From Mesorhizobium australicum (GTDB taxonomy: Bacteria; Pseudomonadota; Alphaproteobacteria; Rhizobiales; Rhizobiaceae): 64,000 nucleotides of DNA. The stretch's first letter is position 1. Each line of letters begins with the position of its first letter. This document shows positions 3,951-23,355 of this stretch, one piece after another. The DNA lies in assembly GCF_900177325.1 (NCBI RefSeq), contig NZ_FXBL01000004.1, positions 1,240,001 to 1,304,000 on the forward strand, given 5' to 3'. Below the pieces are notes generated by a model that did no database searches, had not been told where the DNA came from, and saw only the letters and a list, made by a program, of their open reading frames with translations. Both the position numbers and the translations under genes were made by a program.

Positions 3951-5492
3951 ATGGTAGAGACCCGCAAATTCGATCGTTCGTGGGGAGGTGGCAAGTGGCT
4001 GTTCGATGCTGGCGCTGTCGACCGCGCGCTGGGACAGCTGCACGTCCAGACCATGCACATCCTGCTCGACGGCATGCGTCGCAGCCAAGTCCCTGAAGGC
4101 GCGCGTATGCCGTCGAGCCGGGTGATCGCCGAGGTTCTGGGCATCAGTCGCAACACCGCCAAGCTGGCGATCGAAGGGCTGGTCGAACAGGGCGTGCTCC
4201 GGGTGCGCGACCGCTCGGGAACCTATGTCGCCGCCGCCTCTCCCGCCTGTGACATTCCGGACAAGGAGGTCCGGGCGGCGGGCACCGTTGACTGGGAAGG
4301 ACGCTTCACCCTGGCGCTCAATCCGGCGATCGAAGTACCAGCCGCACGCGCAGCCACGGTGAGCTTTCTCTACGGGCAATTCGACGCATCGGTGTTTCCG
4401 GCTGGACGCTGGAGGGAATGCGAACGGGCGGCGCTCAGCGTGGCGGAAATCCAGAGCTGGGGAAAGGACGTGGTTGATGAGGACGACCCACTGCTCGTCG
4501 AGCAGTTGCGCGAGCAGGTGCTGCCGCGGCACGGCATCCTCGCGCGTGCTGAGAACATCCTGATTACGCTCGGCGGTCAGCAGGGGCGTTATCTCGTCAG
4601 CCAACTGTTCGGCGTCGCCGGCACCATAACCGGCATCGAACATCCTGGCATGCCGGACATCGCCAAGATACTTGCCTTGTCGCCCACTCGACGCCGGCCG
4701 CTGCGGCTGGATCGCGACGGCGTCATCCTCGGCGACCAGCTACGCGGTTGTGACACTGTCTTCGTCACCTGTGGCCACCAGTGCCCGACGACTGCGGTGA
4801 TGCCGCTCGAGCGCCGCCGCGGGCTGCTCGAACAGGCCGGTCAGGACGATTTCATCATCGTGGAGGACACGTTCGAGACGGAACTCTTCATCGCACCAGA
4901 AAACTTGCCTGCCCTCAAGGCGATGCCTGAGTCCGAGCGTGTGATCCATGTCGGTAGCCTGTCAAAGTTGATCGCGCCGGGGCTGCGGCTCGGTTATGTC
5001 GTTGCCGAACCGCCGGTCATCGCGCAGATGCGCGCATTGCGGCGGCTGATCCACCGTCATCCGCCGGGCAACAACCAGCGGGCGCTGGCGATCTTCATCG
5101 AGCGCGGGTACTACCGGGCGTTCCTGCGTCGCGCCAAGGCGGTGATGGAGGAACGTGAGCTGGTCATGGAAGAAGCGCTCCACCGACACTTCCCCGGTTC
5201 GCAATGGCGCCACTGTCCCGGCGCGTCGACGTTCTGGATCAGGTTGCCCGAAGGGCTGGGCAGCGAGGATTTCTGCCGCCACGCCGCCGCGTGCGGCATT
5301 CTCGTCGAAACCGGCACGCGGTATTTCTATGCCGGGGCGCCCGACGGCGACTATCTGCGTCTTTCGGTCTCGAGCATCCCCGCCGCCCGCATTCCCGAAG
5401 GCGTGCGGCTGCTCGCCGCCGCTTTCCACGACCACGCGTCGGCGCCCGGCACGACCGCGGCGGAAACCCGCGAAACAAACTGGGACCGTTGA
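3951..5492 (+). CDS. MocR/PdxR-type regulator (GntR HTH + aminotransferase-like domain)
   Basis: This 513-residue protein has an N-terminal GntR winged helix (about residues 20-95, with 'PSSRVIAEVLGISRNTAKLA' as the recognition region) joined to a fold-type-I aminotransferase domain (about 130-500). The PLP lysine lies in 'HVGSLSKLIAPGLRLGYV', and 'YFYAGAPDGDYLRLSVS' is the expected C-terminal segment. MocR regulators bind PLP or an amino compound and control neighbouring catabolic or vitamin genes. It lies upstream of, and in the same direction as, the NMT1-type importer and nucleoside enzymes, which are its likely targets. The length is normal for the family. Confidence 0.92.
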   Translation: MVETRKFDRSWGGGKWLFDAGAVDRALGQLHVQTMHILLDGMRRSQVPEGARMPSSRVIAEVLGISRNTAKLAIEGLVEQGVLRVRDRSGTYVAAASPACDIPDKEVRAAGTVDWEGRFTLALNPAIEVPAARAATVSFLYGQFDASVFPAGRWRECERAALSVAEIQSWGKDVVDEDDPLLVEQLREQVLPRHGILARAENILITLGGQQGRYLVSQLFGVAGTITGIEHPGMPDIAKILALSPTRRRPLRLDRDGVILGDQLRGCDTVFVTCGHQCPTTAVMPLERRRGLLEQAGQDDFIIVEDTFETELFIAPENLPALKAMPESERVIHVGSLSKLIAPGLRLGYVVAEPPVIAQMRALRRLIHRHPPGNNQRALAIFIERGYYRAFLRRAKAVMEERELVMEEALHRHFPGSQWRHCPGASTFWIRLPEGLGSEDFCRHAAACGILVETGTRYFYAGAPDGDYLRLSVSSIPAARIPEGVRLLAAAFHDHASAPGTTAAETRETNWDR

Positions 5493-5587: not shown

Positions 5588-6649
5588 ATGACCGATACTG
5601 CCAACCAAGCCGGCATTGCCGGCAGGACGAACAGACGTGATTTCCTCCGCCTTTCGACCGGTGCGATCGCTGCGGCATCGCTCGGCACCGGGGCTTTCGT
5701 CACCATCGGGCGCGCCAACGCGGCCGGCGCCACGCCGGTCCAGATCCAGTACGACTGGTTGATCGGAAATGGCCAGATCGGCGACATTGTCGCCCTCAAG
5801 AAAGGCTGGTTCGCCGAGGAGGGCCTCGAAGTGACGCTCGGCGGCGGCGGTCCGAACGCGCAGACGTTGCCGCCGCTTCTCACCGGGCAGGCGCTGATGG
5901 GCCAGATGACGAGCTCGCAGACGCTCGTCGCCCATGGCGCAGGGCGTCCAGTCATGCTCTTTGCCTGCGGCTACCAGTACTCGCCCTATGCCTACGTCTC
6001 GCTGCCGCGCTCGCCGATCCGGACGCCGCAAGACATGGTCGGCAAGACCATCGCGGTCAATCCGAACGGCCGTTTCACCTTGCAGCTTATCCAGAACCTG
6101 CATGGGATCGATCCCGCCAGCATGAAGGTGATCACGCAGGGCGCGGACATGACCGCGCTGCTGGTCGGGCAGGCGGACGCCGTGACCGGGTTCCTCACCA
6201 ACACCTCCGCGCTCGCGGCGCTCGGCCCCGACATCATCACCATGACCTCGGAGGACGCCGGCGTCGTCGGTTACGCCAACGCTTACATCTGCACGCAGGA
6301 CGCCTTTGCGGAGAACCAAGAGATTTACGCCAAGTTCATTCGCGCCTGCGGCAAAGGATGGGGTTGGACCTTCGAGAACCGGAAGGAGGCGGTGGACATC
6401 ATGTGCGACGCCTATCCGAACCTCGATCGGACCGTCGAGCACGCGACCGTCGACACGGTGATGAAGATCGCCTTCGGCCCCGACACCAAGGCCAATGGCT
6501 GGGGCTGGTTCGAGCCGGCGAAGCTGCAGAAGCAGATCGACCTGTTCGCCAGCGGCAAGGCCTTCGAGACGCGGACCCCCTTGCTCGCCGACGTCGCCTC
6601 GCAGGCGATTCTTCAGGCGACGGCGGCCGACCGGCCGAAGCTCGGATGA
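5588..6649 (+). CDS. ABC transporter periplasmic receptor, NMT1/THI5-SsuA type, Tat-exported
   Basis: The 353-residue precursor begins with a twin-arginine signal ('RRDFLRLSTGAIAAAS', residues 18-33) followed by a hydrophobic stretch and an alanine cleavage region near residue 45. The mature part matches NMT1/THI5-like or SsuA receptors: 'VQIQYDWLIGNGQIGDIVALKKG' spans the first strand and helix, then 'FAEEGLEVTLGGGGPNAQTL' and the 'GQADAVTGFLTN' hinge. These bind pyrimidine-type vitamin precursors, sulfonates or related solutes. Its stop overlaps the ATPase start by four bases (ATGA), so the importer is translationally coupled. Enzymes downstream suggest a nucleoside or nucleobase ligand, which is inference. 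Confidence 0.88.
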   Translation: MTDTANQAGIAGRTNRRDFLRLSTGAIAAASLGTGAFVTIGRANAAGATPVQIQYDWLIGNGQIGDIVALKKGWFAEEGLEVTLGGGGPNAQTLPPLLTGQALMGQMTSSQTLVAHGAGRPVMLFACGYQYSPYAYVSLPRSPIRTPQDMVGKTIAVNPNGRFTLQLIQNLHGIDPASMKVITQGADMTALLVGQADAVTGFLTNTSALAALGPDIITMTSEDAGVVGYANAYICTQDAFAENQEIYAKFIRACGKGWGWTFENRKEAVDIMCDAYPNLDRTVEHATVDTVMKIAFGPDTKANGWGWFEPAKLQKQIDLFASGKAFETRTPLLADVASQAILQATAADRPKLG

Positions 6650-7428
6650 TGCCGGCCATCAGCCTCTCCGGTGTGGACGTTTCGTTCGCCACCCCGGCCG
6701 GCCCCTTCCGGGCGCTCGACAAGGTCGCCCTCGAGGTGCCGGATGGCCGGTTCTGCGTGCTGATCGGACCGTCGGGCTGCGGGAAGTCGACGCTCCTGCG
6801 GGTAATGGCGGACCTGCAGCAACCGAGCAACGGCAGCGTCTCGGTGTTCGGCCGCGATCCGGCCGCGGCACGGCGGGAGCGCCGCATCTCCTTCGTCTTC
6901 CAGGATGCGACCTTGCTGCCGTGGCGCAGCGTCCTCGACAACGTGCGGCTGCCGCTGCAGGTCGGCGGCTGGTCGAAGCTCGGACGGGCACATCGCGATC
7001 CGGCCGAGATGATCGCGCTGGTCGGGCTGGCCGGACGCGAATCGGCCTTGCCGCATCAGCTCTCCGGCGGACAGCGCCAGCGCGTGGCGATCGCCCGCGC
7101 GCTGGTGACACGGCCCGACATCCTGCTGATGGACGAGCCTTTCGGAGCCCTCGACGAGATCACCCGCGAGCGGCTGAACGAGGAATTGCTACGCATCTGG
7201 CAGGAAACCCGCACCACCGTAGTCTTCGTGACCCACAGCCTCTCGGAGGCGGCATTCCTGGGGCAGACGATCGTCGTCATGGGCGCGCGGCCCGGCCGGC
7301 TGACCAAGGTCGTCAGCCTCGACAAGGACACCTCCACCCATGACATCGACAGAAGCTCTGCGGAGTTTTTCGAAATCACGTCGGCTCTCCGGACCCACCT
7401 CGAAGAGGCCGAAAGGGCCGCGGCCTGA
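6646..7428 (+). CDS. ABC transporter ATPase, SsuB/TauB/ThiZ type
   Basis: This 260-residue ATP-binding subunit has Walker A 'GPSGCGKST', Q-loop 'FVFQDATLLPWRSV', signature 'LSGGQRQRVAIARAL', Walker B 'ILLMDEPFGALD' and H-loop 'VFVTHSLSEAAFLG'. The 'LLPWRSVLDNV' wording after the Q-loop is typical of nitrate/sulfonate/taurine/NMT1-type importers. It starts at the ATG that overlaps the receptor stop. Its C-terminal 30 codons may overlap an alternative upstream start of the permease. It energises uptake through the next gene's product. Confidence 0.95.
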   Translation: MMPAISLSGVDVSFATPAGPFRALDKVALEVPDGRFCVLIGPSGCGKSTLLRVMADLQQPSNGSVSVFGRDPAAARRERRISFVFQDATLLPWRSVLDNVRLPLQVGGWSKLGRAHRDPAEMIALVGLAGRESALPHQLSGGQRQRVAIARALVTRPDILLMDEPFGALDEITRERLNEELLRIWQETRTTVVFVTHSLSEAAFLGQTIVVMGARPGRLTKVVSLDKDTSTHDIDRSSAEFFEITSALRTHLEEAERAAA

Positions 7429-7435
7429 TCTGGTG

Positions 7436-8173
7436 ATGAAGCTTGCCAGACCGATCCTAGGTTTCGTGTCGCTCATCGCGGCGTGGGCGCTCGTGACGTG
7501 GCTTTTCGCTGTGCCCACCTACATTTCGCCGGGGCCATTCGCTGTTGCGCGCGCCTTCGTCGCCAATCTCGGACTGCTGTTGGCCAATCTGCTGCCAACG
7601 GCGCAGGCAGCGATCGGCGGTTTCGTTATCGGCAACATCGCGGCGGTACTGCTGGCGACCCTGTTCGTGCACGGGCAGCGCGTACGCGAATCCTACATGC
7701 CAGTCGCGATTTTTTTCAACACCATCCCTATCATCGCGCTCGCGCCGGTGGTGATCCTCATCTTTGGCCTGGGCGTCGCCTCGAAGATCGTCGTCGCGGC
7801 CATCGTCTGCTTCTTCCCGACGCTCATCAACATGATCCGCGGCTTCGAATCCGTCTCGCCGTCGGAGCTCGAACTGATGCGGGTGATGTCGGCGTCGCGG
7901 AGCGAGGTGTTCTTCCGGCTGCGATTGCCGCGCTCGGTTCCGTTCCTCTTCGCGGCCTTGCGCATCTCGGCCACCGCGAGCGTCATCGGCGCGATCGTGG
8001 CGGAGTGGATCGGCGCGGAGATGGGCCTCGGCGTGCTGATCATCCAGACCACCTTCGACTACCGCACCGAGCTGCTCTACGCCGCCATCTGCGCCTCGTC
8101 GCTGCTGGCGCTGGCGATGTTCGCGATCGTCGTCATCGCCGAAAGCCTGATCGTGAAGTGGCGCACCAACTGA
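7436..8173 (+). CDS. ABC transporter permease, SsuC/TauC/ThiX type
   Basis: The 245-residue inner-membrane protein has about six hydrophobic segments. The coupling loop 'SPSELELMRVMSASRSEVFFRLRLP' corresponds to the EAA motif, and 'GAIVAEWIGAEMGLG' is characteristic of SsuC-like permeases. I chose the ATG at 7436, just after the ATPase stop; the frame also opens at an ATG at 7340, which would add 32 polar residues and overlap the ATPase by 89 bases. With the two genes before it this completes a one-receptor, one-ATPase, one-permease importer. Confidence 0.92.
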   Translation: MKLARPILGFVSLIAAWALVTWLFAVPTYISPGPFAVARAFVANLGLLLANLLPTAQAAIGGFVIGNIAAVLLATLFVHGQRVRESYMPVAIFFNTIPIIALAPVVILIFGLGVASKIVVAAIVCFFPTLINMIRGFESVSPSELELMRVMSASRSEVFFRLRLPRSVPFLFAALRISATASVIGAIVAEWIGAEMGLGVLIIQTTFDYRTELLYAAICASSLLALAMFAIVVIAESLIVKWRTN

Positions 8174-8213
8174 CCCCGCCTCCCTTTCCCCCAACACCTG
8201 AAAGCGCAGACAG

Positions 8214-9044
8214 ATGACCTCCAGCTCCACCGGCCCGAACGCGACGATCGGCGACCAGCGCCGCCTCAACCTGCTCAGCGAGATCGCGCTTCCCCCCTAT
8301 GTGCTGATGCCGGGCGATCCGGATCGCGTCGACGTGATGGCGTCGCAGTGGGAGGACGCCACCGTCGTCGCGCTGCCGCGCGGTTACAAGGCGGCCTCCG
8401 GCACCTATCGCGGCGTCCGCATCGGCGCCATCTCCACGTCGATCGGCGCCCCGTCGCTGGAGTCCATCTTCACCGATCTCGCGCGCCTCGGCGTCCACAG
8501 TTTCATCCGGGTCGGCACCTGCGGCACGTTGTGGGCCGACATCGAGCCGGGCTCGCTGATCGTCAACGACGCGGCGGTGCGCCTCGACGGCACGACGAAT
8601 TTCTATGCCCGGGCGGAGTTTCCGGCGGTAGCCTCGTTCGAGGCGACGCTCGCCCTTTCGGATGCGGCGAACGCGCTCGGCCACGCCTACCGCGTCGGTA
8701 CCGGCTGCACCGCAGGCTCCTTCCTCACGGGCCAGGGCCGGCCCGGCTACAACGACTTCCTCTCGCCGCACAGCCAGACGATCGTGGAGGAGATGGCCAA
8801 TCTCGGAGTGCTCAACTTCGAGATGGAGACGGCCTCACTGCTCACCTTTGCCCGCATCTTCCGCCTTCGTGCCGGCTCGGTCTGCTCGGTGATCGCCAAC
8901 CGCCGGACCGGCGTGTGGGGCGACAATGGTGGCATCGAGAAGGCCTGCCTCACCGGGGCCGAGGCGCTGTGGCGCCTGGCCACATGGGACGGCGCACGCG
9001 GCGGCGAACGCCCGCTGGTGGCCTCCGACATCACGCCCGCCTGA
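8214..9044 (+). CDS. Nucleoside phosphorylase, uridine phosphorylase-like
   Basis: This 276-residue cytoplasmic enzyme belongs to the PNP/UDP phosphorylase family. It shows 'MPGDPDRVDVMA' (phosphate site), 'RVGTCGTL', 'DAAVRLDGTTNF', 'PAVASFEA' and 'NFEMETASLLT', all parallel to Escherichia coli Udp. The segment 'TGQGRPGYND' keeps the Gln and Arg that contact the uracil ring in Udp ('GQERYD'), which favours a pyrimidine-type or uridine-like substrate over a purine. The reaction is phosphorolysis of a nucleoside to base and (deoxy)ribose 1-phosphate. It lies between the importer and an isomerase that could use the sugar 1-phosphate. Confidence 0.9.
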   Translation: MTSSSTGPNATIGDQRRLNLLSEIALPPYVLMPGDPDRVDVMASQWEDATVVALPRGYKAASGTYRGVRIGAISTSIGAPSLESIFTDLARLGVHSFIRVGTCGTLWADIEPGSLIVNDAAVRLDGTTNFYARAEFPAVASFEATLALSDAANALGHAYRVGTGCTAGSFLTGQGRPGYNDFLSPHSQTIVEEMANLGVLNFEMETASLLTFARIFRLRAGSVCSVIANRRTGVWGDNGGIEKACLTGAEALWRLATWDGARGGERPLVASDITPA

Positions 9045-9067
9045 CGGGCCTCATCGAAAGCATCGGC

Positions 9068-10084
9068 ATGAAAACGGTTCCCACTCCCACGCTCATCCGG
9101 GACAGCGTCATCCTGGAGCCTGGCCGCGTCCGCGTGCTCGACCGGCGGATCTTCCCGCTGCGCATTGCGTTCGTGGACTGCCCCGACGTCGAGGCCTGCG
9201 CGCGCGCCATCGAGGAAATGGTCACCCAGAGCGCGGGTCCCGGCAAGTTGGCCGGCGCTGCCATGGTGCTGGCGGCAGAAGCCTGCGCCGGCAGTGCCGC
9301 CGAGGCGCGCAAGGCAGCGATGAAGGAAGCCGGCGTCCGGTTGCTGAAAACGCGGCCGACTAATAACAACATCCGCGATATCGTCGGCGCCGTGCTGGCC
9401 ACGCTCGACGCACTGGCGGCGAGCGACGAGTTCGTTACCGCCGTCGAACGGATCGTGCGACAGGAATGGGACAAGCGGCACCGCAACAGCCGCCGGCTCG
9501 GCACCGCCGCGGCCGGACTGATCGAGGACGGCGACGCCATCCTCACTCATTGCTGGGCCGAGACGAGCCTGATCGACACTTTGACGGTGGCGACGGAGAC
9601 CGGCAAGAAGATCACGGTCGTCTGCACGGAGACGCGGCCCTACCTGCAAGGCGCTCGGCTCACCGCGCATTCGGTCGCCGAGATGGGGCTGCCGGTGACG
9701 GTGATTACCGACGGCATGGCGGCCCACGCAATGGCGACAGGCATGGTGTCGCGCTACATGACGGCTGCCGACCGCGTCACGCTCTCCGGCCATGTCTTCA
9801 ACAAGGTCGGCACGTTCCAGATCGCAACCGCGGCAAGGGCGCTGAACGTGCCCTACGTGGCTATGGTGCTGCGGCCGGACCGGCTAGCGCCGGGGCCGGA
9901 GGCGGTAGAGCTCGAGATGCGGGATGGCGAGGAATCCCTTCACTGCCTCGGCCATCGCACCGCAACGCCGCTCGCGACCGGCTGGTATCCGGCGTTCGAC
10001 ATCACGCCCCCCGACTTCGTCTCCGCCTATGCGACAGAGGAAGGGGTTTTTCGAGCCGGCGACCTCGCGGGAAGGTTCGGCTGA
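9068..10084 (+). CDS. MtnA/eIF2B-family sugar 1-phosphate isomerase
   Basis: The 338-residue protein is of the aldose-1-phosphate isomerase branch of the eIF2B alpha/beta/delta family. It has 'ETRPYLQGARLTAHSVAEMG', 'ADRVTLSGHVFNKVGT', the catalytic Cys in 'ILTHCWAETS' (Cys162) and the catalytic Asp in 'VITDGMAAH' (Asp215). Known members isomerise 5-methylthioribose 1-phosphate, 5-deoxyribose 1-phosphate or ribose 1,5-bisphosphate to the ribulose form. The frame is open upstream, but the ATG at 9068 follows the phosphorylase by 23 bases and gives the expected length. Which sugar 1-phosphate it accepts cannot be told from sequence; the neighbours suggest the product of the preceding phosphorylase. 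Confidence 0.88.
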   Translation: MKTVPTPTLIRDSVILEPGRVRVLDRRIFPLRIAFVDCPDVEACARAIEEMVTQSAGPGKLAGAAMVLAAEACAGSAAEARKAAMKEAGVRLLKTRPTNNNIRDIVGAVLATLDALAASDEFVTAVERIVRQEWDKRHRNSRRLGTAAAGLIEDGDAILTHCWAETSLIDTLTVATETGKKITVVCTETRPYLQGARLTAHSVAEMGLPVTVITDGMAAHAMATGMVSRYMTAADRVTLSGHVFNKVGTFQIATAARALNVPYVAMVLRPDRLAPGPEAVELEMRDGEESLHCLGHRTATPLATGWYPAFDITPPDFVSAYATEEGVFRAGDLAGRFG

Positions 10085-10085
10085 C

Positions 10086-11603
10086 GTGGAGCTACACGGG
10101 GCAGAGACGACCATCCTCCACGGCGGCGCGCTGTGGAACGGTACCGGCTTCGACCGCGCCGATGTAGCGATCGCCGATGGCCGGATCGCGGCGATCCTGC
10201 CGCCCGCACGCGCCTACGAGGGCGATGTCGAGATCGTCGACGCGCGGGGTTGCGCTATCCTGCCCCCCTTCTTCGACGGCCATGTGCACTCCTCCTCGAC
10301 CCTGCTTCGCGGCACCGAGAACAGCTATCCGCTCGAACTCTGGTCGTTCTGGGCGATTGGCTACGGGCGCGGTGCCACCGCTGCTTCGATCAGGGCATCG
10401 ATGCGGCTGACAGCGATCGAGATGATCCGGGCGGGCATCGGCGGCTATGTCGACCATTTCCCGCCGGCGCGCTTCATGGCGCAGGGCCTTGAGGTCCATC
10501 GCGAAAGCGGCCTGCGCATCGGCTTCGCCCCGTTCTTCGCCGACCTTGTCGACGAAGACCTGCTGGATATACCGCTCGACCGGTCGGTGATCGCGGCGGT
10601 GGCGCCGGTCGTTCCAAGCGACCCGGACGAACTGCGTCGGCGGACGACTGCGCTCGCCGCCATGGCGGACGACCGCATCACTCCGCTCCTTGGACCCAAC
10701 GCCCCGCAGCGCTGTTCGGCCGAACTCATCTCCCTGTGGGCGAGGCTGGCGGTGGAGCACGACCTGGGCAGCCACACCCACCTGCTCGAGACCTATCCCC
10801 AGTCGCGCGCGGCAGCGGCGCGCTGGGCCGGCGGCGTGGTGGGCGAACTCGATCGGCTCGGGCTGCTCCATGGCCGAACGTCGCTTGCCCATGCCATCTG
10901 GCTCGACGCGCCGGCCCGCTGCCTGCTCGCCGAACGCGGGGCGACGGCGATCCACAATCCACTGAGCAACCAGATGCTGGGATCTGGGCGGATGCCGGTG
11001 CGATCGATGCTGGACGATGGCGTACGCCTGGGGCTCGGCACGGACTGCTCTAACACATCAGGCCGGCACGACCTGTTCGAAGCGATGCGGCAGATGCTGG
11101 TGGCGGGACGCGATGCAGGCAGTCGCCACGACGCATGGATCCGGCCCGAGGAGGTTCTGAGGGCTGCGGTCGAGGATGGCTGGGCTTCGCTTGGCAAGGG
11201 GCCGGCACGGCTGATTGCCGGTGCGCCGGCCGATCTGATGGTGCTTGATTTTCGTACGGCATCGCTCGCGGCGGCAGAGATTTCGGCCGCCAGCATCGTA
11301 AGCCATGGCGATGCAAGCGCCGTGCGCGACCTCATGGTCGGTGGCCGCTGGCTGATGCGCGACCGGACGATCCGGGTGTTCGACGAGGCCGAAATTATCG
11401 ACGAGGCGGCGGGCCACGCGGCGGCGCTGCGTGAAGGCGCGCGGCCGTCCCTGGAGCGGCTGCACCCGCATGTCGGGGACTACGACCGGTGGAGCGTCGG
11501 GGTCTTTTCCAGCCTGGGCTGCCCGCATTGCGGCCGTGCCGGCGGGCTGCACGGCTTCGCCGCCGAGCCGGCCGGGGAACCGGCCGCGCCGGCGAAACCG
11601 TAG
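10086..11603 (+). CDS. Amidohydrolase, nucleoside/MTA-SAH deaminase-like, with Cys-rich tail
   Basis: A 505-residue metal-dependent hydrolase of the TrzN/AtzA/MTA-SAH deaminase group, starting at a GTG one base after the isomerase stop. Metal ligands are visible as 'DGHVHSSST', 'SHTHLLET', 'LAHAIWL' and 'GLGTDCSN'; 'NPLSNQMLGSGRMPV' is the usual substrate loop. These enzymes remove an amino group (or chloride) from purine, pyrimidine or triazine rings in the cytoplasm. Beside a phosphorylase, isomerase and aldolase it could deaminate an imported nucleoside before cleavage. An odd feature is a C-terminal tail of about 35 residues with 'GCPHCGRAGGLHG', a CxxC element outside the normal fold. 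Confidence 0.85.
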   Translation: MELHGAETTILHGGALWNGTGFDRADVAIADGRIAAILPPARAYEGDVEIVDARGCAILPPFFDGHVHSSSTLLRGTENSYPLELWSFWAIGYGRGATAASIRASMRLTAIEMIRAGIGGYVDHFPPARFMAQGLEVHRESGLRIGFAPFFADLVDEDLLDIPLDRSVIAAVAPVVPSDPDELRRRTTALAAMADDRITPLLGPNAPQRCSAELISLWARLAVEHDLGSHTHLLETYPQSRAAAARWAGGVVGELDRLGLLHGRTSLAHAIWLDAPARCLLAERGATAIHNPLSNQMLGSGRMPVRSMLDDGVRLGLGTDCSNTSGRHDLFEAMRQMLVAGRDAGSRHDAWIRPEEVLRAAVEDGWASLGKGPARLIAGAPADLMVLDFRTASLAAAEISAASIVSHGDASAVRDLMVGGRWLMRDRTIRVFDEAEIIDEAAGHAAALREGARPSLERLHPHVGDYDRWSVGVFSSLGCPHCGRAGGLHGFAAEPAGEPAAPAKP

Positions 11604-11638
11604 CGATGACGCAATCTTTCGAACGGGAGGAAACGAGC

Positions 11639-12268
11639 ATGGTCGACGCCGAGGGGCTTCGGGACGAATTGTGCAGGACCTATCGCGCCATGGATGCCGC
11701 CGGGCTGATCTTCCTGGCGGCAGGCAATCTGAGCGTACGTTTCGGCGGCGGCATGCTGATCTCGCCGGCCGGCGCCTCGGCCGCCGCGATCACGCCCGCC
11801 TCCTTCGTGGAGACGGCATTCGACGGCAGCGCCCAGGCGGGGCGGCCGTCGAGCGAGTGGGCGATGCACGCGGCCATCTACGAGGCCTATCCGCAGGCGC
11901 ATTCCGTCGTGCACACCCATTCCGACCATTGCGTGGCGCTCGCCGCCACGGGCGAGAATCTGCCGCCCTTCCACTACATGGTCGCTGCCTTCGGCGGCGA
12001 CGACGTCCGCTGCGCGCCCTACGTCCACTGGGCGACCCGGGCGCTGGCGGACAGCGCGGTGGCGGCGCTGCGCGGCCGCAGCGCCTGCCTTCTTGGCAAT
12101 CACGGCATGATCTGCCACGGCAAGACCATCGGCGCTGCCTTCAACGCCGCATTGCGGCTGGAAGTGCTGTCGCGCCAATACATCCTGGCGCGGCAGGCGG
12201 GCGCTGTCCGGCTGCTCGACGACGCGGAAATGCGCGCCGCCAACGAGCGGTATATCGGATATGGGTGA
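11639..12268 (+). CDS. Class II (zinc) aldolase, fuculose-1-phosphate aldolase family
   Basis: This 209-residue enzyme has the class II aldolase/adducin fold: 'AAGNLSVRFGGGMLISPAG' near the start, the catalytic Glu in 'PSSEWAMHAAIYEA', zinc histidines in 'VVHTHSDHC' and 'LLGNHGMIC'. Members cleave ketose 1-phosphates (fuculose, rhamnulose, ribulose or 5-deoxyribulose 1-phosphate) to DHAP and an aldehyde. The ATG at 11639 has a strong GGGAGG ribosome site 8 bases upstream and is preferred to the in-frame ATG at 11606. It is the last gene of the run from 5588 and would accept the isomerase product. Confidence 0.88.
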   Translation: MVDAEGLRDELCRTYRAMDAAGLIFLAAGNLSVRFGGGMLISPAGASAAAITPASFVETAFDGSAQAGRPSSEWAMHAAIYEAYPQAHSVVHTHSDHCVALAATGENLPPFHYMVAAFGGDDVRCAPYVHWATRALADSAVAALRGRSACLLGNHGMICHGKTIGAAFNAALRLEVLSRQYILARQAGAVRLLDDAEMRAANERYIGYG

Positions 12269-13318: not shown

Positions 13319-15631
13319 TTATGCGGCCGCCAGGGCGACCAGCTTCTCATGATACTGCTCGAAGGCGTCGCCCGACGCGCCGGTGTAGCGCTCGATGCTG
13401 ACCATGCAGGTCTGGGCCGAGCAGCCCTGGCCGAACTGCGAGGTGCCGACGTCGAGCGTCAGCACGTTGGGATTGCCGGCGACCTCGAGGCCACTATTGC
13501 CGGTGGGCGTGAACCAGGCGCCGGTCGGTAGGATGACGACGCCCTGACGAATGCCGTCGCTCAGATCGGCGGTGGCGAGGCATGCGCCGCGCTCGTTGGA
13601 AAGCCGCACCGTGTCTCCGTCGGCAATGCCGAGGGTTGCGGCGTCGGTCGCGTTGATGAGCACTTGCTCGCGCCCGCCCCGCTTCATCGCGCGGCTTGCC
13701 TCGCCGGTCTCCAGTTGGCTGTGAAGGCGGCCGACCGGTTGCTGAGAGAGCAGGTGGAACTGGCCTGCATTGCCGGCGGCGCCCAGCCATTCGGCAGGTT
13801 CGATCCAGGCAGGGTGCTCGCGGCAGTCGGCATAGTCGAGCCTCGCCAGCGTCTCGCTGCCGAGCACGATGCGACCGCTCTCGGTGGCGAGTGCGTTATC
13901 CTGCGGATTGTCGCGGAATTCGGCCAGATAGACGTGGTCTGTCTTCATCGGGCAGCGCGCCCAGCCCTGTTCCCAGAACGTGTCGAAGTCGGGCATGTCG
14001 AAGCCGAGGCGGCCGGCTGCGTCGTCGCGGCTTATGTTGTAGAGGTGGCGCAGCCAGCCCATTTCGTCGCGGCCTTCGTTGAAGCGCTCGCCGACGCCGA
14101 GCTTGCCGGCAATTTCGTCGAAGATGGCGAAATCCGAGCGCGAATTGCCGACGGGGTCGATCGCCTTGTGCATGGCCAGGATGAAGTCCGAACGTTTGTT
14201 GCCGGCGATGTCGTTGCGTTCGATTGAGGTGTTCGCCGGCAGGACGATGTCGGCGCGCTGGGCCGTGGCGGTAAACATCGGGTCCTGGACAATGATCGTC
14301 TCCGGCCGAGTCCAGGCCCGGCCGAGGCGGTTGAGGTCCTGGTGGTGGTGGTAGGGATTGCCGCCGGCCCAGTAGACGAGGCGGATGTGGGGATAGGTCC
14401 GTGTCTGCCCTTCATAGGTGTAGGACGCGCCGGGATTGAGCAGCATGTCGCTGATGCGGGCGACTGGAATGAAGCTGTCGATCGGCTTGGCGAGCTGCGA
14501 CATGCCTGGCGACTTGCCGAGATTGTAGTGCGCACCGACGCCGCCTAGGGAGGCGTAGCCGTAGCCGACGCCGCCGCCCGGTAGGCCGATCTGGCCGACC
14601 ATGGAGGCGAGGCCGAGGGCGGCCCAGAAGGGCTGCTCGCCATGATGGGCCCGCTGAAGACTCCAGCTCACGGTGAGCATGCTGCGCGTGTCGACGAGGC
14701 GGCGCGCCAGTTGCGCGATCGCATCGGCTGGAAGCCCGCAGATCTCCGCCGCCCAGTCGGCGTCCTTGCGCACGCCATCCTCGCTGCCGTCGAGATAGGC
14801 GAGCAGCCGATCCGCGCCGCTGGTGCAGCGGGAGAGGAAGTCGCGGTCGTGGCGGCCGGCCTTCGCGATCTCGCCGGCCATGCCCAGCATCAGCGCGGCG
14901 TCGGTATTGGGGCGGATCGGCCACCATTCCGCCGGCAGCCAGTCGGGCAGGTCGTCGCGGAGGGGCGAGACCAGCACGACCTTCACGCCGCGCTCGGCGA
15001 TGCGGCGCAAATGCTTCTCCAGCGCGTGGCTGCCGATGCCGCCGGCCTCGCTCTGGGCGGTCCGGGGCGACAGCGCGCCGAACACGACGAGCGTCTCCGT
15101 ATGCTCCGCGATGGTGTCCAGCGTGTTGGCCTGGCCGCCACAGGCGACATCGCTGCCCAGCGTATGGCGCAGGATCACCGGCCCGGCCGCGATCGAATAG
15201 GTGTCGACATGGCCGGTGAAGCCGCCGGCCAGGTTCATTGTCCGCTTGAGCAGCGACGAGGCATGGTGAAAGCGCCCGCAACTGGTCCAGCCATACGAGC
15301 CGGCGAAGATCGAGGCGTTGCCATGTTCGCCGGAGACGCGGCGGATCTCGTCCGCCACCAGCGTGGTGGCGTCGTCCCAGCTGACGGGCACGAATTTCTC
15401 GCTGCCGCGGCCGCTCCTGTCGCTGCGCTCGCGCTTCTCCAGCCAGCCGGAGCGCACCATGGGCTGCAGCACGCGCCGGTCGGGCCTGGCCCATTCGCGG
15501 ATGGAGTCGATGATCGGTGACGGCGCCGGATCATGCGCAAACGGCTCGACGCCGACGATGCGGCCGTCTTCGACCAGAATCGTGTAAGCGCCCCAGTGGC
15601 TACAGTGCGGATAGCGTCGGATCGCTCCCAT
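13319..15631 (-). CDS. Molybdopterin oxidoreductase, biotin/DMSO/TMAO reductase (BisC) type, cytoplasmic
   Basis: The 770-residue protein belongs to the DMSO-reductase family branch without an iron-sulfur cluster (BisC, TorA/TorZ, DorA). 'FAGSYGWTSCGRFHH' holds the serine expected to ligate molybdenum (Ser117), and the later 'GGNPYHHHQDLNRL', 'DPMFTATAQRADIVLP' and C-terminal 'LEVAGNPNVLTLDVGTSQFG' are typical bis-MGD binding segments. There is no Tat signal or hydrophobic leader: the protein starts 'MGAIRRYPHCSHWGAY', so it should be cytoplasmic like BisC. It probably reduces an S-oxide or N-oxide. It lies 12 bases after the ThDP enzyme and 13 before the peroxidase-related gene. Confidence 0.88.
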   Translation of the reverse strand: MGAIRRYPHCSHWGAYTILVEDGRIVGVEPFAHDPAPSPIIDSIREWARPDRRVLQPMVRSGWLEKRERSDRSGRGSEKFVPVSWDDATTLVADEIRRVSGEHGNASIFAGSYGWTSCGRFHHASSLLKRTMNLAGGFTGHVDTYSIAAGPVILRHTLGSDVACGGQANTLDTIAEHTETLVVFGALSPRTAQSEAGGIGSHALEKHLRRIAERGVKVVLVSPLRDDLPDWLPAEWWPIRPNTDAALMLGMAGEIAKAGRHDRDFLSRCTSGADRLLAYLDGSEDGVRKDADWAAEICGLPADAIAQLARRLVDTRSMLTVSWSLQRAHHGEQPFWAALGLASMVGQIGLPGGGVGYGYASLGGVGAHYNLGKSPGMSQLAKPIDSFIPVARISDMLLNPGASYTYEGQTRTYPHIRLVYWAGGNPYHHHQDLNRLGRAWTRPETIIVQDPMFTATAQRADIVLPANTSIERNDIAGNKRSDFILAMHKAIDPVGNSRSDFAIFDEIAGKLGVGERFNEGRDEMGWLRHLYNISRDDAAGRLGFDMPDFDTFWEQGWARCPMKTDHVYLAEFRDNPQDNALATESGRIVLGSETLARLDYADCREHPAWIEPAEWLGAAGNAGQFHLLSQQPVGRLHSQLETGEASRAMKRGGREQVLINATDAATLGIADGDTVRLSNERGACLATADLSDGIRQGVVILPTGAWFTPTGNSGLEVAGNPNVLTLDVGTSQFGQGCSAQTCMVSIERYTGASGDAFEQYHEKLVALAAA

Positions 15632-15643
15632 GGCGGCACTCCC

Positions 15644-17194
15644 TCAGATCATCGCTTCGATAAGGAACGGTCCCTTGCGCCGGCAAGCGGACGCAAGCAA
15701 GTCGGCGAAGCGCCCGGCCGTATCGGCGCGTGCGGCCTCCACGCCCATAGCACCTGCGAGCTTGACCCAGTCAAGCGCGGGATCGTCCAGATTGAGCATG
15801 CGGCTGGCGTTCTCGCCCGGTGCGCCGGCCCCGACATTCTTCAGTTCGCCCAGCAGGATTTGGTAGCGGCGGTTGGAGAAGACGATGGTGACGACGTCGA
15901 GCCTCTCGCGTGCGTGGGTCCACAGCGCCTGGACGGTATACATGCCGCTGCCGTCGGCCTGCAGCACGATCACCTTGCGATCGGGGCAAGCGATGGCCGC
16001 GCCGGTGGCGAGCGGCAGGCCGATGCCGATCGCGCCGCCGGTAAGCTGGAGGAAATCGTGCGGCTCGGCGCCATAGGTGCTGCGGAAGAAGTCGCGCCCG
16101 GAGGTCACTGATTCGTCGCAGATGATGCTGTCCGCCGGCATCAGCCGGGCGAGGGCGACGGCGATGGCTTCTGGCGTCAGCTTCCCAGTCGGCATATCGG
16201 GGGAATGGCGCGGCGAGAGTCGGGGGGGCGGCGCCTGGGTCACGCCGACGGCGTCGGCCAGCGCTTCGATCGCCGCGACGGGATCCTCGCCCTCGGCATA
16301 TAGGTCGAGCACCAGGCAACCCTCGGGCAGCATGCTGCCCGGCTTGCCCGGATAGGCGAAGAAGCCGACCGGCGCCTTCGCGCCGAGCAGGATCAACTGC
16401 TCGGTGTCGGCAAACGTCGCGACTGCCTGGTCGATGACATAGGGCACGCGGTCGAGGGCCACGCGCCCGGCGCCACGCTGCATACGGCTGTTGGCCTGCT
16501 GGGCCATCAGACGCGCGCCGGTGCGCTGGACGATGCGGTCGAGCCGTTCGAGCTGCGGTGCGCGCAACGCGATGCCGGTGACGAGGATTGTCGTGCGTCG
16601 GCCGGCCTGCAGGGCCGTGGCGGCGGCATCGATACGTGCCTGGTCGGGCTGCCCAGAAACGGCCTGGGGAAGGGGCGCGGGCATGTCGTGCGATGTCTCG
16701 TTCCACGCGGCGTCGGCATGCAGGATCATGGTCGCGATCCGGCCGGGCGTGCCGCGGGCGGCGCCGATCGCTTCCTCGGTCCGCTCGCCCACAGTGTCGG
16801 CGGTTGCGGCGCGTCCGACCCAGTGCGACATGGGGCGCGCGAGCGACTCGATATCGGAGGTAAGCGGCGCGTCGTAAGCGAGGTGATAGGTTGCATGGTC
16901 GCCGACCACATTGACGATCGGCGATCGCGCGCGCCGCGCATTGTGCAGATTGGCCAGGCCGTTGGCCAGCCCGGGGCCGAGGTGGAGCAGGGTGGCGGCG
17001 GGTTTGTCTGCCATGCGCGCATAGCCGTCGGCCGCGCCGGTGACGACGCCTTCGAACAGGCCCAGCACGCAGCGCATGCGCGGCTGGCGGTCGAGGGCGG
17101 CGACGAAATGCATCTCCGACGTGCCCGGATTGGCGAAGCACACGTCGATGTCGTTGGCGAGCAATGTCTCGCAGAGCAGGTCGGCGCCGTTCAT
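15644..17194 (-). CDS. Thiamine diphosphate-dependent enzyme, acetolactate synthase large-subunit-like
   Basis: This 516-residue protein has all three ThDP-enzyme domains. 'NPGTSEMHFVAALD' and the catalytic Glu in 'GLFEGVVTGAADGYARM' (Glu48) form the Pyr domain; the C-terminal PP domain has the ThDP/Mg motif beginning 'ADGSGMYTVQALW' and ending in an Asn about 30 residues on. It resembles the uncharacterised IlvX/benzoylformate-decarboxylase-like group more than true acetolactate synthases and is shorter than sulfoacetaldehyde acetyltransferase. It probably decarboxylates or ligates a 2-oxo acid. Its ATG overlaps the FGGY kinase stop (ATGA), so the two are coupled. The substrate is unknown. 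Confidence 0.86.
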   Translation of the reverse strand: MNGADLLCETLLANDIDVCFANPGTSEMHFVAALDRQPRMRCVLGLFEGVVTGAADGYARMADKPAATLLHLGPGLANGLANLHNARRARSPIVNVVGDHATYHLAYDAPLTSDIESLARPMSHWVGRAATADTVGERTEEAIGAARGTPGRIATMILHADAAWNETSHDMPAPLPQAVSGQPDQARIDAAATALQAGRRTTILVTGIALRAPQLERLDRIVQRTGARLMAQQANSRMQRGAGRVALDRVPYVIDQAVATFADTEQLILLGAKAPVGFFAYPGKPGSMLPEGCLVLDLYAEGEDPVAAIEALADAVGVTQAPPPRLSPRHSPDMPTGKLTPEAIAVALARLMPADSIICDESVTSGRDFFRSTYGAEPHDFLQLTGGAIGIGLPLATGAAIACPDRKVIVLQADGSGMYTVQALWTHARERLDVVTIVFSNRRYQILLGELKNVGAGAPGENASRMLNLDDPALDWVKLAGAMGVEAARADTAGRFADLLASACRRKGPFLIEAMI

Positions 17195-18705
17195 TCGGGC
17201 GAGGTCTCCATGACGTGGTCGGCAAGATCGCGGATCACGGACATCTTCTGCCAAAGAGGCGCAATCGAATCGAGCAGGCTTACAAACAGCGCATGTTTTT
17301 CACGAGCATAGTCTGCCACTTTGCCCGTCTGCGGCATGGCGACAGCATCGGGCGTGTTCACCCATGCGCGGGCGAGTTCGGCGTCGCCCGCGTCCAGCAG
17401 GTGCCTGGCTCCGATCGTCGCGAGGCCGCGCAGACCGGCCTGGGCGCCACTGGCGCGCTCGACGGGAATACCCAGCAGCGTCGCCAGGAATCCTGCGAAG
17501 TACGGGTCGGACGCCAGGCCGCCGCCGAGCGAGAGCACGCCGGCGGGCGCGTTCATCATGTCGTGGCTGATCCGCGCGACGAAGGCCAGGCCTTCGCGGG
17601 CGGCCCAGGCGATCTGCTCGGGCCGGGTGTGCGCCGTCAGCCCCAGCAGCGCGCCGCTGGCATCGGGCGTCGTATAGGGCGCTCGCTCGCCGCCTGGCTC
17701 GAAGAAAGGGTGCAGGATCAGCCCGGAATAAGCCGGGCCGACGTGGATCGGCAGGCCGACGGCGATGCGTCCGACGTGCTGGAACAGCGTTGCGCCGTTG
17801 AAGCTCGGGTGGAACGACAGAAAGCCTTCGCCGAGGACGAAACGCTGGAGCATGGCGCCGGGCGGCGTCTGGCGCATCTGCGTCGGGTCGAGGATGTGGC
17901 AAGCATGGATTGCGCTAGTACCGAAGATCGATGCGCGCGTCACCGAGGGTCGGATGCCGAGGCCGAGGCCGACTAGCGTCGACTGCACATCGCCGGGTCC
18001 GAGCAGGACCGGCGTTCCGGCCGCGACGCCGATGGCCGCGGCCGCGGCCGACGAAAGCGTGGCACGGCATTCGCCTACCGGGGCGAAGTCCGGGAGGAGC
18101 TCCAACCCGCGCTCAAGGCCCAACGCGCGCTGGACGAGATCCGACATGGCGCCGGTTCGCCAGTCGCCCCAGACGGGTAGGGCGGCTGTCGGCTCGCCGC
18201 ACAAGGCTCCCGTCAGCGTGAAGAAAAGCCATTCCTTGAGGCGAAGCACATGGGCGATGCGCGACAGGCGCTGCGGATCGTTGCGCTGCAGCCAGAGCAG
18301 TTGCAGGCTCTGCGACGCCGCCGTCGGGCGGGACCCTGTCACCGCATGGATTTCGTCCTGGGCGCCCGAGGCCTGCAGTTCTGCCGAAATCTGCCTTACC
18401 CGGCCGTCAAGCCAGGTCATGGCGTGGCCGGCCGGCTGCGTGGCCGCGTCGAGCGGCCACAGGCCGTCGCCTTGGCCGGTGACGAGGATGCCCTCGACCG
18501 GACCGCCGAGCCCGGCGGCGCAGTCGCGCAGCACCGCGAAGGCGTCGTCCCGCGTCACCGCCATGTCCTGCTCGACGCGCGCGCCGTCGCGTCGCAGCGC
18601 CTGATTCTGCCGTTCCGCCGTCGCCACGATCCGGCCATGCCTGTCGAACGCAGCGGCCTTGACGGCCGTCGTTCCGGAATCGAGGCAGAGCAGGAAAGGG
18701 CCCAT
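17191..18705 (-). CDS. FGGY-family carbohydrate kinase
   Basis: The 504-residue protein has the two actin-like domains of FGGY kinases: 'LCLDSGTTAVKAAAFDRHGR' (phosphate 1) at the N-terminus, 'GQGDGLWPLD', and in the C-terminal domain 'ASIFGTSAIHAC' and 'SLGGGLASDPYFAGFLATLL' (adenosine site). Substrates in the family include ribulose, xylulose, fuculose, erythrulose and glycerol. A class II aldolase begins eight bases upstream in the same operon, so phosphorylation of a ketose at C1 followed by aldol cleavage is the natural reading, as in fucose or rhamnose catabolism. The start at 18705 was chosen because 'MGPFLLCLDSG' is the conserved beginning of the fold. Confidence 0.9.
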   Translation of the reverse strand: MGPFLLCLDSGTTAVKAAAFDRHGRIVATAERQNQALRRDGARVEQDMAVTRDDAFAVLRDCAAGLGGPVEGILVTGQGDGLWPLDAATQPAGHAMTWLDGRVRQISAELQASGAQDEIHAVTGSRPTAASQSLQLLWLQRNDPQRLSRIAHVLRLKEWLFFTLTGALCGEPTAALPVWGDWRTGAMSDLVQRALGLERGLELLPDFAPVGECRATLSSAAAAAIGVAAGTPVLLGPGDVQSTLVGLGLGIRPSVTRASIFGTSAIHACHILDPTQMRQTPPGAMLQRFVLGEGFLSFHPSFNGATLFQHVGRIAVGLPIHVGPAYSGLILHPFFEPGGERAPYTTPDASGALLGLTAHTRPEQIAWAAREGLAFVARISHDMMNAPAGVLSLGGGLASDPYFAGFLATLLGIPVERASGAQAGLRGLATIGARHLLDAGDAELARAWVNTPDAVAMPQTGKVADYAREKHALFVSLLDSIAPLWQKMSVIRDLADHVMETSPE

Positions 18706-18713
18706 GTTCTGGT

Positions 18714-19391
18714 TCAGGAAGCCTGCCGCAGCCCCTGGAGCGCGGCGGTTCCCTGCTGGCCGTAGGTCTTGAACTTCACCAGCACCTCCGCGATCTGGCT
18801 CTCCGACAGCACCGGCGGCTCGCCGAAGGGCAGGCACAGCAGATATTGCTGCGCCAGGGTCTCGACCGTCACCGCCAGCGCCAGGGCGCGGGCGATGGAG
18901 ACATGCGCGGCAATGACGCCATGATGGGCCATGAGGCAGGCGCGACGGCCTTCAAGCGCCTTGACCACGACGTCGGCCAGCGCCTGCGATCCGAAGATCT
19001 CGTAGGGCGCGCAGGGGATCGTGCCGCCGCCCGTCGCAGCGATCGAATAGTGGATCGCCGGAATGTCCTTGCCGAGGATCGAAACGGCAGTTGCATGGGT
19101 GGAATGGGTGTGCACCACCGCGTTCAGATCCGGCCGGGCGCGCAGGATGTCGCGGTGGAAGCGCCATTCGCTCGACGGCAGCACGTCGCCGGCATAGGTG
19201 GCGTCCCAGTTCATGGCCACGACGTGCTCGGGCAGCAGGTCCTTGTAGGGAATGCCGGTCGGGGAGATGAGGAAACCGTCGCCGTGGCGGACGCTTATGT
19301 TGCCTGCCGTGCCCTTGTTGATGCCGAGGGCGTTCATGCTGCGGCACGCCTCGATCAGTTCGGTCCTCAGTGCGCGTTCTTCGTCTGTCAT
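18714..19391 (-). CDS. Class II (zinc) aldolase, fuculose-1-phosphate aldolase family (second copy)
   Basis: The 225-residue enzyme shows 'NKGTAGNISVRHGDGFLISP', catalytic Glu in 'PSSEWRFHRDILRA', zinc histidines in 'VVHTHSTHAT' and 'LMAHHGVIAAH'. It is a paralogue in family terms of the aldolase at 11639 but clearly divergent, so the two probably act on different ketose phosphates. It lies between a hydroxyacid dehydrogenase and the FGGY kinase with 8-base gaps, all in one operon. Expected products are DHAP and an aldehyde or hydroxyaldehyde. The start at 19391 gives the standard family length. Confidence 0.9.
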   Translation of the reverse strand: MTDEERALRTELIEACRSMNALGINKGTAGNISVRHGDGFLISPTGIPYKDLLPEHVVAMNWDATYAGDVLPSSEWRFHRDILRARPDLNAVVHTHSTHATAVSILGKDIPAIHYSIAATGGGTIPCAPYEIFGSQALADVVVKALEGRRACLMAHHGVIAAHVSIARALALAVTVETLAQQYLLCLPFGEPPVLSESQIAEVLVKFKTYGQQGTAALQGLRQAS

Positions 19392-19399
19392 GGCAAGGT

Positions 19400-20455
19400 T
19401 CACTTCGTCGGGTAGAGGGGCTGCTCGCCTTCCAGGATACGGCCGATGTCCTCGGCGATCATGTCGGCGGCCTTGGTGATCGAATAGCGGGACGCGCCGG
19501 CAATGTGCGGCGACAGCGTCACGTTGGGAAGTTTCAGAAGCGGCCAGTCGGCTGGCGGCGGCTCGGGATCGAAGGTGTCGAGGGCCGCGCCGCGCAGATG
19601 TCCCGAGACCAGCCCATCGTAAAGCGCGGAGTAGTCGAGGACCTGGCCGCGCGTCGTGTTGACGATATATGAGCCGGGCTTCATCGCGGCGATCTGGGCG
19701 CGGCCGATCATGTTTTTGGTTTGCGGCGTGACGCGCGGATGCAGCGTGACGACGTCGCAATGCGCCAGGAGCTCGTCCAGCTCCATCTTGCGGATTCCGG
19801 CGTCGGCCTCTTCCTGCGTCAACTGCCGGAACGGATCGTAGATGGCGATGCGGCACCCGAATGGCCGCAGCAGCCGCGCCACGCGCGAGCCGATGTCGCC
19901 GAATCCGACGATGCCGACGGTGAGTTCGCAGAGTTCCGGTCCCGTATGATCAAAGTGGTAGAATTCGCGGCGGAATTCGCCGCTTGCCACCGACAGGTGG
20001 CCGCGGATCAGGTTGCGCGTTTCGGCGAGCAGAGACGCAACCGTAAATTCGGCGACCGCGGAGGCGTTGCGGCCGGGCGTGTTGACGACGGTGATGCCGC
20101 GGGCACGGGCGGCCGCCATCTCGATGTTGACCGGACCGCCGCGCGACACGGCGATGATCTTCAGCTTCGGCGCGTGCTCCAGGCTCCTGGCGGTGATCGG
20201 CGCCAGGTGCGTCACCAGGACATCGAGGTCGGCGATAAAGTCGAAATAATGCTCCGGCCGGCCGACGAACTCGGCGACGGGAAGATCGGGATCGAACTTC
20301 GTCGACTGCACCTTGAGCGGCCAGTCGAGCTGCATCTGGCGATAGGTCGCGGCGCGCCCAGCGAGCCGCTTCGTCAGCGCACCCTCGAAGAAGGCCGGCT
20401 GCATGAAACCGTCACCGATGATCCCGATCGACAGCGAGCGCGTCTGGTTCATCAT
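19400..20455 (-). CDS. D-2-hydroxyacid dehydrogenase, PGDH-like
   Basis: This 351-residue protein is an NAD-dependent D-isomer 2-hydroxyacid dehydrogenase. The Rossmann motif is 'TVGIVGFGDIGSRVARLL'; catalytic residues are in 'NTTRGQVLDYSAL' (Arg), 'DTFDPEPPPADWPL' (Glu region) and 'TLSPHIAGAS' (His). It should interconvert a 2-hydroxy acid and a 2-oxo acid, which fits supply of a 2-oxo acid to the ThDP enzyme in the same operon. Two nearby starts exist; the ATG at 20455 lies 8 bases after GGAGG, while the ATG at 20461 lies only 2 bases after it, so 20455 is preferred. The specific acid is unknown. Confidence 0.88.
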   Translation of the reverse strand: MMNQTRSLSIGIIGDGFMQPAFFEGALTKRLAGRAATYRQMQLDWPLKVQSTKFDPDLPVAEFVGRPEHYFDFIADLDVLVTHLAPITARSLEHAPKLKIIAVSRGGPVNIEMAAARARGITVVNTPGRNASAVAEFTVASLLAETRNLIRGHLSVASGEFRREFYHFDHTGPELCELTVGIVGFGDIGSRVARLLRPFGCRIAIYDPFRQLTQEEADAGIRKMELDELLAHCDVVTLHPRVTPQTKNMIGRAQIAAMKPGSYIVNTTRGQVLDYSALYDGLVSGHLRGAALDTFDPEPPPADWPLLKLPNVTLSPHIAGASRYSITKAADMIAEDIGRILEGEQPLYPTK

Positions 20456-20475
20456 GTTCATGACCTCCGGCGCTC

Positions 20476-21690: not shown

Positions 21691-21704
21691 TCTGTCCAGT
21701 TCAA

Positions 21705-23290: not shown

Positions 23291-23355
23291 CCTCCCAAAT
23301 CCGCCTCGGCGCCCTGAGGCGGTCGAGACGGTTAGCTTTTGGACTTCCAACAGGT

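Follow-up and report, generated by a model that had tools for sequence, protein, structure and literature searches.

The locus considered here raises the question of why genes for an ATP-binding cassette (ABC) importer, a nucleoside phosphorylase, a sugar-phosphate isomerase, an amidohydrolase and an aldolase should lie together in a single run in the 5.86 Mb genome of Mesorhizobium australicum. We analysed a window of 64,000 nucleotides (contig NZ_FXBL01000004.1, positions 1,240,001 to 1,304,000; coordinates below count from its first letter), in which an original prediction had read the run at 5588-12268 as a pathway that imports a nucleoside and degrades its sugar to dihydroxyacetone phosphate (DHAP). 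Our answer, to which we give a probability of about 60%, is that the run is an inducible nucleoside-scavenging operon working as a DHAP shunt, and that its sugar is most likely a 5-deoxy or 5-substituted ribose. The plus-strand run is indeed one tight gene set, and all the genes originally named are present close to where they had been placed and belong to the expected superfamilies, with Pfam scores far over the curated cut-offs (NMT1 135 bits, ABC_tran 112, BPD_transp_1 97, PNP_UDP_1 96, IF-2B 158, Amidohydro_1 109 and Aldolase_II 159; some queries were open reading frames carrying extra upstream letters). From the binding protein to the aldolase, the first two genes overlap and the others follow at 7, 40, 23, 1 and 35 bases, and a MocR-type regulator gene ends 95 bases ahead of the binding-protein gene. 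This regulator and a second aldolase (ALD2, minus strand) are additions to the earlier gene list. The genes of the run are:

3951-5492, plus strand: MocR/PdxR-type regulator (GntR plus aminotransferase fold), from profile matches and from its neighbours in other genomes
5588-6649, plus strand: substrate-binding protein of the NMT1/Thi5 type, carrying a Tat signal (TIGR01409, 20.7 bits over 16.7)
6646-7428, plus strand: ABC importer ATPase of the taurine/nitrate-type group, from profile matches
7436-8173, plus strand: ABC importer permease, SsuC-like (possible GTG start at 7433)
8214-9044, plus strand: uridine-phosphorylase-type nucleoside phosphorylase, from residue alignment and the uridine phosphorylase equivalog TIGR01718 (206.8 bits, under the cut-off of 280.3)
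9068-10084, plus strand: putative aldose-1-phosphate isomerase with the eIF2B fold, from a clade of its own (marked by MVTQ[SG]xGP, C162, acidic 165, D235, N245-K246)
10086-11603, plus strand: ATZ/TRZ-type, deaminase-like amidohydrolase (GTG start; metal and catalytic residues conserved; CPHC motif near the C-terminus)
11639-12268, plus strand: divergent class II (fuculose-phosphate-type) aldolase, the in-run ALD (alternative ATG at 11606)

From the genes, their order and conservation, the residue patterns and the mutual exclusion of kinase and phosphorylase genes, all of them observed, we infer the reactions and substrates as follows. The NMT1-type importer would take up a nucleoside, and the amidohydrolase would convert an amino substituent of the base to an oxo group, either on the nucleoside or on the released base. 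The Udp-type phosphorylase, which would need an oxo face for its Gln174 and Arg176, would cleave the nucleoside phosphorolytically, releasing the base and a sugar 1-phosphate. Opened by the isomerase, the sugar 1-phosphate would become a ketose 1-phosphate, which a class II aldolase (the in-run ALD, ALD2 or both) would cleave to DHAP and an aldehyde. With 5-deoxyribose or another 5-substituted ribose as the most likely sugar, this aldehyde would be acetaldehyde or a substituted acetaldehyde.

Support for this scheme comes from the genes that accompany related isomerases. A scan of named genome contigs gave 47 isomerase loci (family and order searches gave further ones), whose neighbours were labelled within 6 kb; a positive is a gene that resembles a query at 55 bits or more, several queries were drawn from these loci, other gene kinds would be missed, and some loci are truncated (L018, L044 and L047, under 8 kb). 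A phosphorylase, from one of several families, was found at 24 loci, an MtnK-type kinase at 6 and both at none, which supports the first proposal that the phosphorylase stands in the place of the usual kinase. All eight kinases that were scanned passed the S-methyl-5-thioribose kinase cut-off. The phosphorylase-isomerase-aldolase logic is likewise supported by comparison; an aldolase is present at 23 loci and occurs together with a phosphorylase or a kinase at 17. As to the amidohydrolase, it is found at 10 loci, always with a phosphorylase and never with MtnK. Under independent loci the chance of the kinase/phosphorylase exclusion would be 0.009 and that of the amidohydrolase pattern 0.0004, but the loci are not independent and these values are guides only. 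Both patterns are as expected should kinase and phosphorylase offer alternative entries to one kind of sugar 1-phosphate, with the amidohydrolase acting on the nucleoside or its base.

The plan recurs with partners that vary by lineage, in what look like independent assemblies. Among Actinobacteria, one locus (L033) combines a CNT nucleoside transporter with a phosphorylase that scores over the curated cut-off for inosine/guanosine phosphorylase, and six (L024, L026, L029, L031, L034 and L043) carry Bmp-type importer genes, which Pfam confirmed in L026. Six Chloroflexota loci (L035, L037, L039, L040, L044 and L046) have an ECF-type importer with an MTAP-type phosphorylase, five of them together with an amidohydrolase, and the importer of L035 was confirmed by Pfam as CbiQ and QueT. 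Bacillota have MtnK-isomerase-aldolase trios, annotated as such in Lactobacillus intestinalis, for example. Two observations stand apart: the ECF substrate component of L035 (10939-11772) is of the QueT family (62.2 bits over 33.7) and lies amid nucleoside-salvage-like genes, and in Geodermatophilus (L022, 5266-8911) the isomerase and aldolase adjoin flavin adenine dinucleotide (FAD) and molybdopterin subunits of the xanthine-dehydrogenase/CO-dehydrogenase type, neighbours that hint at purine catabolism.

The isomerase itself falls well below the equivalog cut-offs for both MtnA (TIGR00512, 185-187 bits against 279) and ribose-1,5-bisphosphate isomerase (TIGR00511, 151-153 bits against 314.1). 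The RGA phosphate loop and THCNAG motif of 1t9k, 1t5o and the host MtnA are replaced by MVTQS and THCWAE. In a maximum-likelihood tree of 60 rows (midpoint root, some long branches), 54 rows including that of the window split off with 100/99 support from three MtnA, two ribose-1,5-bisphosphate isomerases and one Paenibacillus row; L012, a copy of L015, had been dropped from the alignment and the tree, and L059, a partial row, from the tree. By these comparisons the enzyme belongs to a clade distinct from the MtnA and ribose-1,5-bisphosphate isomerase references that were tested. A broader search gave 4939 matches at E 1e-3 among 7998 scored candidates, not all of them members of this clade. 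Cys162, rightly singled out in the original prediction, is kept in 49 of 49 clade rows, as are Arg96, Gln194, Asp235, Asn245 and Lys246, and position 165, a Gly in MtnA, carries an acidic residue in 46 of the 49. Asp215, which had been named with Cys162, is present and equally invariant (49/49), but by alignment it is not the catalytic aspartate: Asp204 of the ribose-1,5-bisphosphate isomerase PH0208 (PMC5789824) aligns instead with Asp235. In that enzyme Arg22, Arg65, Gln166 and Lys215 are described as contacts of the 1-phosphate and Ser137 as a contact of the 5-phosphate (PMC5789824). The counterparts of Arg65, Gln166 and Lys215 are kept here (Arg96, Gln194 and Lys246), that of Arg22 is Gln54 and that of Ser137 is Ala164. 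Because the three former contacts are retained and Ser137 is not, we infer that the natural substrates are sugar 1-phosphates without a 5-phosphate. A role as ribose-1,5-bisphosphate isomerase was rejected on the lost serine and the TIGR00511 score.

What, then, does the phosphorylase recognise? Residues R30, R48, R91, F162, Q166, R168, E198 and R223 of Escherichia coli Udp, which we take to be its phosphate, base and 2'-OH contacts, are each identical in 116 of 116 rows (those of the window and L032, plus 114 relatives of 255 residues or more out of the 120 listed; six shorter ones were dropped). The Gln/Arg pair that had been noticed in the motif TGQGRPGYND is therefore real: Gln174 and Arg176 align with Q166 and R168 of Udp in all these rows. 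The pair is informative because the Udp-like enzymes of L013 and L068 carry Glu and Asn there. Ahead of the PGD motif, no His was found in the window phosphorylase, nor in 29 of 37 relatives; the N-terminal His of Udp holds the 5'-OH of the substrate. The step from the Gln/Arg pair to a pyrimidine-like base was too long, since Q166 and R168 read an oxo face and a haloarchaeal Udp-family enzyme is described as preferring guanosine (PMC9700705). On the alignment, it is safe to conclude that the pair points to the oxo (lactam) face of a base, uracil- or hypoxanthine-like, and not to a pyrimidine alone. Such a requirement would explain the place of a deaminase in the operon. Nor does it follow that the pathway differs from the known adenine-based shunt, since a deaminase followed by an oxo-purine phosphorylase would use an adenine nucleoside. 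The tail of the amidohydrolase carries a CPHC motif (11530-11545), found in 12 of 13 operon-type relatives and in none of five remoter ones, which is possibly a metal knuckle.

The original prediction had staked itself on conservation of the gene order, and the full set of regulator, binding protein, ATPase, permease, phosphorylase, isomerase, amidohydrolase and aldolase was found in six genomes, that is, the window's own and five others (L011; L012, the same as L015; L016; L017, the same as L066; and L067). These belong to Rhizobiaceae, Phreatobacter, another metagenome-assembled genome (MAG) of Hyphomicrobiales and Pseudooceanicola, and the isomerases of the full-set genomes are 61-77% identical. 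In a sample of 397 genomes of the order, phosphorylase and isomerase reach at least 60% identity in the same three (the host's, G497 and G582). Mesorhizobium sp. J428 and a Rhizobiaceae MAG are among the named relatives with the same operon. The MocR regulator adjoins the operon in all six genomes, ahead of the binding protein in four and at the aldolase end in two (L011 and L015). When records of equal size were taken as a proxy for the same contig, 28 were common to isomerase and phosphorylase and 16 to these two and the amidohydrolase (120, 120 and the first 75 of 120 rows, respectively).

The coupling of the pathway to an importer also held up in the comparison. NMT1-type importers are customarily linked to thiamine precursors, nitrate or sulfonates, and the best solved relative of the binding protein is the formylaminopyrimidine-binding protein 3ix1 (57.9 bits). 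Such importers occur in related settings as well. One lies in L068 beside an inosine-uridine hydrolase, a cytidine-deaminase-type gene and a Udp-like gene, where this isomerase is missing; both there and in L013 the accompanying Udp-like gene is the one having Glu and Asn instead of the Gln/Arg pair. In Polaromonas (L087), the isomerase and an NMT1-type importer accompany a gene labelled S-methyl-5'-thioinosine phosphorylase; the label 'nucleoside deaminase' in the Polaromonas record was set aside, as its frame matches the aldolase.

Several observations weigh against a DHAP shunt of this kind. At eleven of the 47 loci, phosphorylase, kinase and aldolase genes are all missing from the 6 kb neighbourhood, so the clade cannot always serve in this pathway. 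Gln54 replaces the phosphate-loop Arg of MtnA and ribose-1,5-bisphosphate isomerase in all 48 rows that have a letter there, which leaves sugar-1-phosphate binding unproven by homology. The in-run aldolase shares only 38% identity with FucA, and the match to the binding protein is divided between two reading frames in both L011 and L067. The operon is also rare: the phosphorylase was found at 1e-30 in 8 of 297 genomes of the family, with at least 75% identity in only 3, and at 1e-45 in one of 385 genomes of the class, its own. As for the amidohydrolase, the Glu that follows the HxH strand (Glu84 of TM0936, which we take to be characteristic of 5'-methylthioadenosine (MTA)/S-adenosylhomocysteine (SAH) deaminases) has no counterpart at that column in the group to which the window protein belongs (18 of 18 rows). 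It is present in 4f0r and 4dyk and in the actinobacterial and chloroflexal amidohydrolase partners of L026 and L035. A reading of this protein as a proven MTA deaminase was consequently rejected; the assignment as a nucleoside deaminase holds at the level of the superfamily but not of the finer identity.

Which nucleoside the operon serves is where the explanations part. The same pathway might act on ordinary ribonucleosides, converting ribose 1-phosphate via ribulose 1-phosphate to DHAP and glycolaldehyde and dispensing with the kinase and phosphatase steps known from haloarchaea, a possibility that we consider serious but rather improbable. The acidic residue 165 could hold a 5-OH, and this residue, together with the actinobacterial relatives that have CNT and inosine/guanosine phosphorylase, or a Bmp-type importer, keeps ribose among the candidates; a glycolate-oxidase-like gene (31971-33389) and an aldehyde dehydrogenase gene (from about 28568) in the window would also fit. 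However, MtnK-type kinases stand in for the phosphorylase at 6 of the 47 loci, and a counterpart of the Udp histidine is missing from the window enzyme and most of its compared relatives. In addition, the host has its own DeoB (446.1 bits over 341.2), which already deals with ribose 1-phosphate, and its own canonical MtnA (431.6 bits over 279), so that the operon is needed neither for ribose 1-phosphate nor for methionine salvage. The characterised DrdK is reported to be inactive on ribose (PMC6079011). The kinase and MTAP-type partners, the missing histidine and the presence of DeoB and MtnA in the host are the reasons for which we favour a 5-deoxy or 5-substituted ribose. Only tentatively, then, could one imagine that the MVTQ clade consists of direct ribose-1-phosphate isomerases and that the window operon is an import-coupled route from nucleoside to DHAP plus glycolaldehyde; if true, such a two-step route, bypassing phosphopentomutase and the pentose phosphate pathway, would exist in at least four phyla (Pseudomonadota, Actinomycetota, Chloroflexota and Bacillota).

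The version first put forward, a pyrimidine pathway from cytidine- to uridine-type nucleosides with a cytidine-like amidohydrolase, would agree with the retention of all the Udp base contacts (116/116) and with the pyrimidine binders among NMT1 proteins (3ix1). We regard it as unlikely, and a cytidine-only reading was rejected because Udp-family members can prefer guanosine. By far the least probable is that the run is a methionine-salvage cluster of the MtnA kind, or that unrelated catabolic genes lie together here by chance. Databases do name the relatives of the isomerase methylthioribose-1-phosphate isomerase, but the clade parts from MtnA at high support and the host has a canonical MtnK-MtnA pair elsewhere, for which reason methionine salvage was rejected. 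Chance is difficult to reconcile with a gene order kept across Rhizobiaceae, Phreatobacter and Pseudooceanicola. In the host genome the canonical MtnA (L081; C4, about 4939394-4941800) adjoins ABC importer genes and a putative kinase that resembles MtnK, which we read as a separate methylthioribose-type cluster.

The aldolase step of the proposed shunt draws attention to the minus strand downstream of the operon, where the following genes lie:

13319-15631, minus strand: putative BisC-family S/N-oxide reductase, from a profile match
15644-17194, minus strand: putative thiamine pyrophosphate (TPP) enzyme of the PRK07586 group, from a profile match
17191-18705, minus strand: FGGY kinase, linked module
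18714-19391, minus strand: ALD2, second, canonical fuculose-phosphate-type aldolase, from alignment and profile match
19400-20461, minus strand: 2-hydroxyacid dehydrogenase, linked module
20476-21723, minus strand: CaiB-type coenzyme A (CoA) transferase, linked module
21705-22484 and 22475-23350, minus strand: two CoA-transferase-fold genes, linked module

The in-run ALD has the FucA-aligned PSSEW, VVHTH, NHG and HYM motifs, at the positions of E73, H92, H94 and H155, which we take to be the metal ligands of FucA, and of Tyr113. ALD2 is 55% identical to FucA and 65-67% identical to the aldolases that the operons of L016, L017 and L067 carry in this place, so that in three of the five sister operons it is ALD2, and not the in-run ALD, that is the closer relative of the operon's aldolase. 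The BisC and TPP genes both adjoin a clade isomerase in L050, and the TPP gene alone does so in L019, L087 and L088. Counterparts of the module at 17191-23350 adjoin isomerases in L019 and L050, and in L070 and L071 those of the FGGY kinase and the dehydrogenase do so. The operon and the minus-strand genes (13319-23350) may form one catabolic island.

If the proposed shunt is correct, DHAP-shunt chemistry would be a catabolic module built with varied importers, phosphorylases and deaminases, reaching beyond the repair of radical-SAM and polyamine by-products. A function would also be proposed for a sizeable isomerase clade now named after methylthioribose 1-phosphate, and the NMT1-type importer family would gain a possible nucleoside role. 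A search of the open-licence literature found nothing on this operon or on a bacterial isomerase route from ribose 1-phosphate to ribulose 1-phosphate. Three things are new: how the operon combines its components, the existence of a distinct isomerase clade with a logic in its gene neighbourhoods, and the type of importer.

Parts of the scheme nevertheless resemble known systems. DadD of Methanocaldococcus jannaschii is said to have been proposed for a deaminase-first recycling of 5'-deoxyadenosine, and Pseudomonas reportedly uses an MTA deaminase followed by a methylthioinosine (MTI) phosphorylase. These routes share with the operon a deamination to an oxo-purine nucleoside ahead of phosphorolysis, but their phosphorylase is of the MTAP family instead of the Udp family and their amidohydrolase belongs to another subgroup. 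The DHAP shunt for 5-deoxyribose disposal is described as DrdKIA, or as MtnK or MtnP with MtnA and Ald2 (PMC6079011, PMC10986504); some of its clusters carry transporters (PMC6079011, PMC10986504), and its MtnP variant already provides a kinase-free entry through a phosphorylase (PMC10986504). The operon has the same trio of a sugar-1-phosphate-forming enzyme, an eIF2B-fold isomerase and a class II aldolase, but it joins to it a Udp-type phosphorylase, an NMT1 ABC importer and a dedicated amidohydrolase, and its isomerase clade is devoid of the RGA phosphate loop. The haloarchaeal non-carboxylating pentose bisphosphate pathway, as presented in PMC9700705, also leads from the sugar of a nucleoside to DHAP by means of a Udp-family phosphorylase, an eIF2B-fold isomerase and a FucA-type aldolase. 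It includes, however, an extra kinase and a phosphatase that have no counterpart in the run, and the enzyme of M. australicum does not retain the contacts that its isomerase makes with the 5-phosphate.

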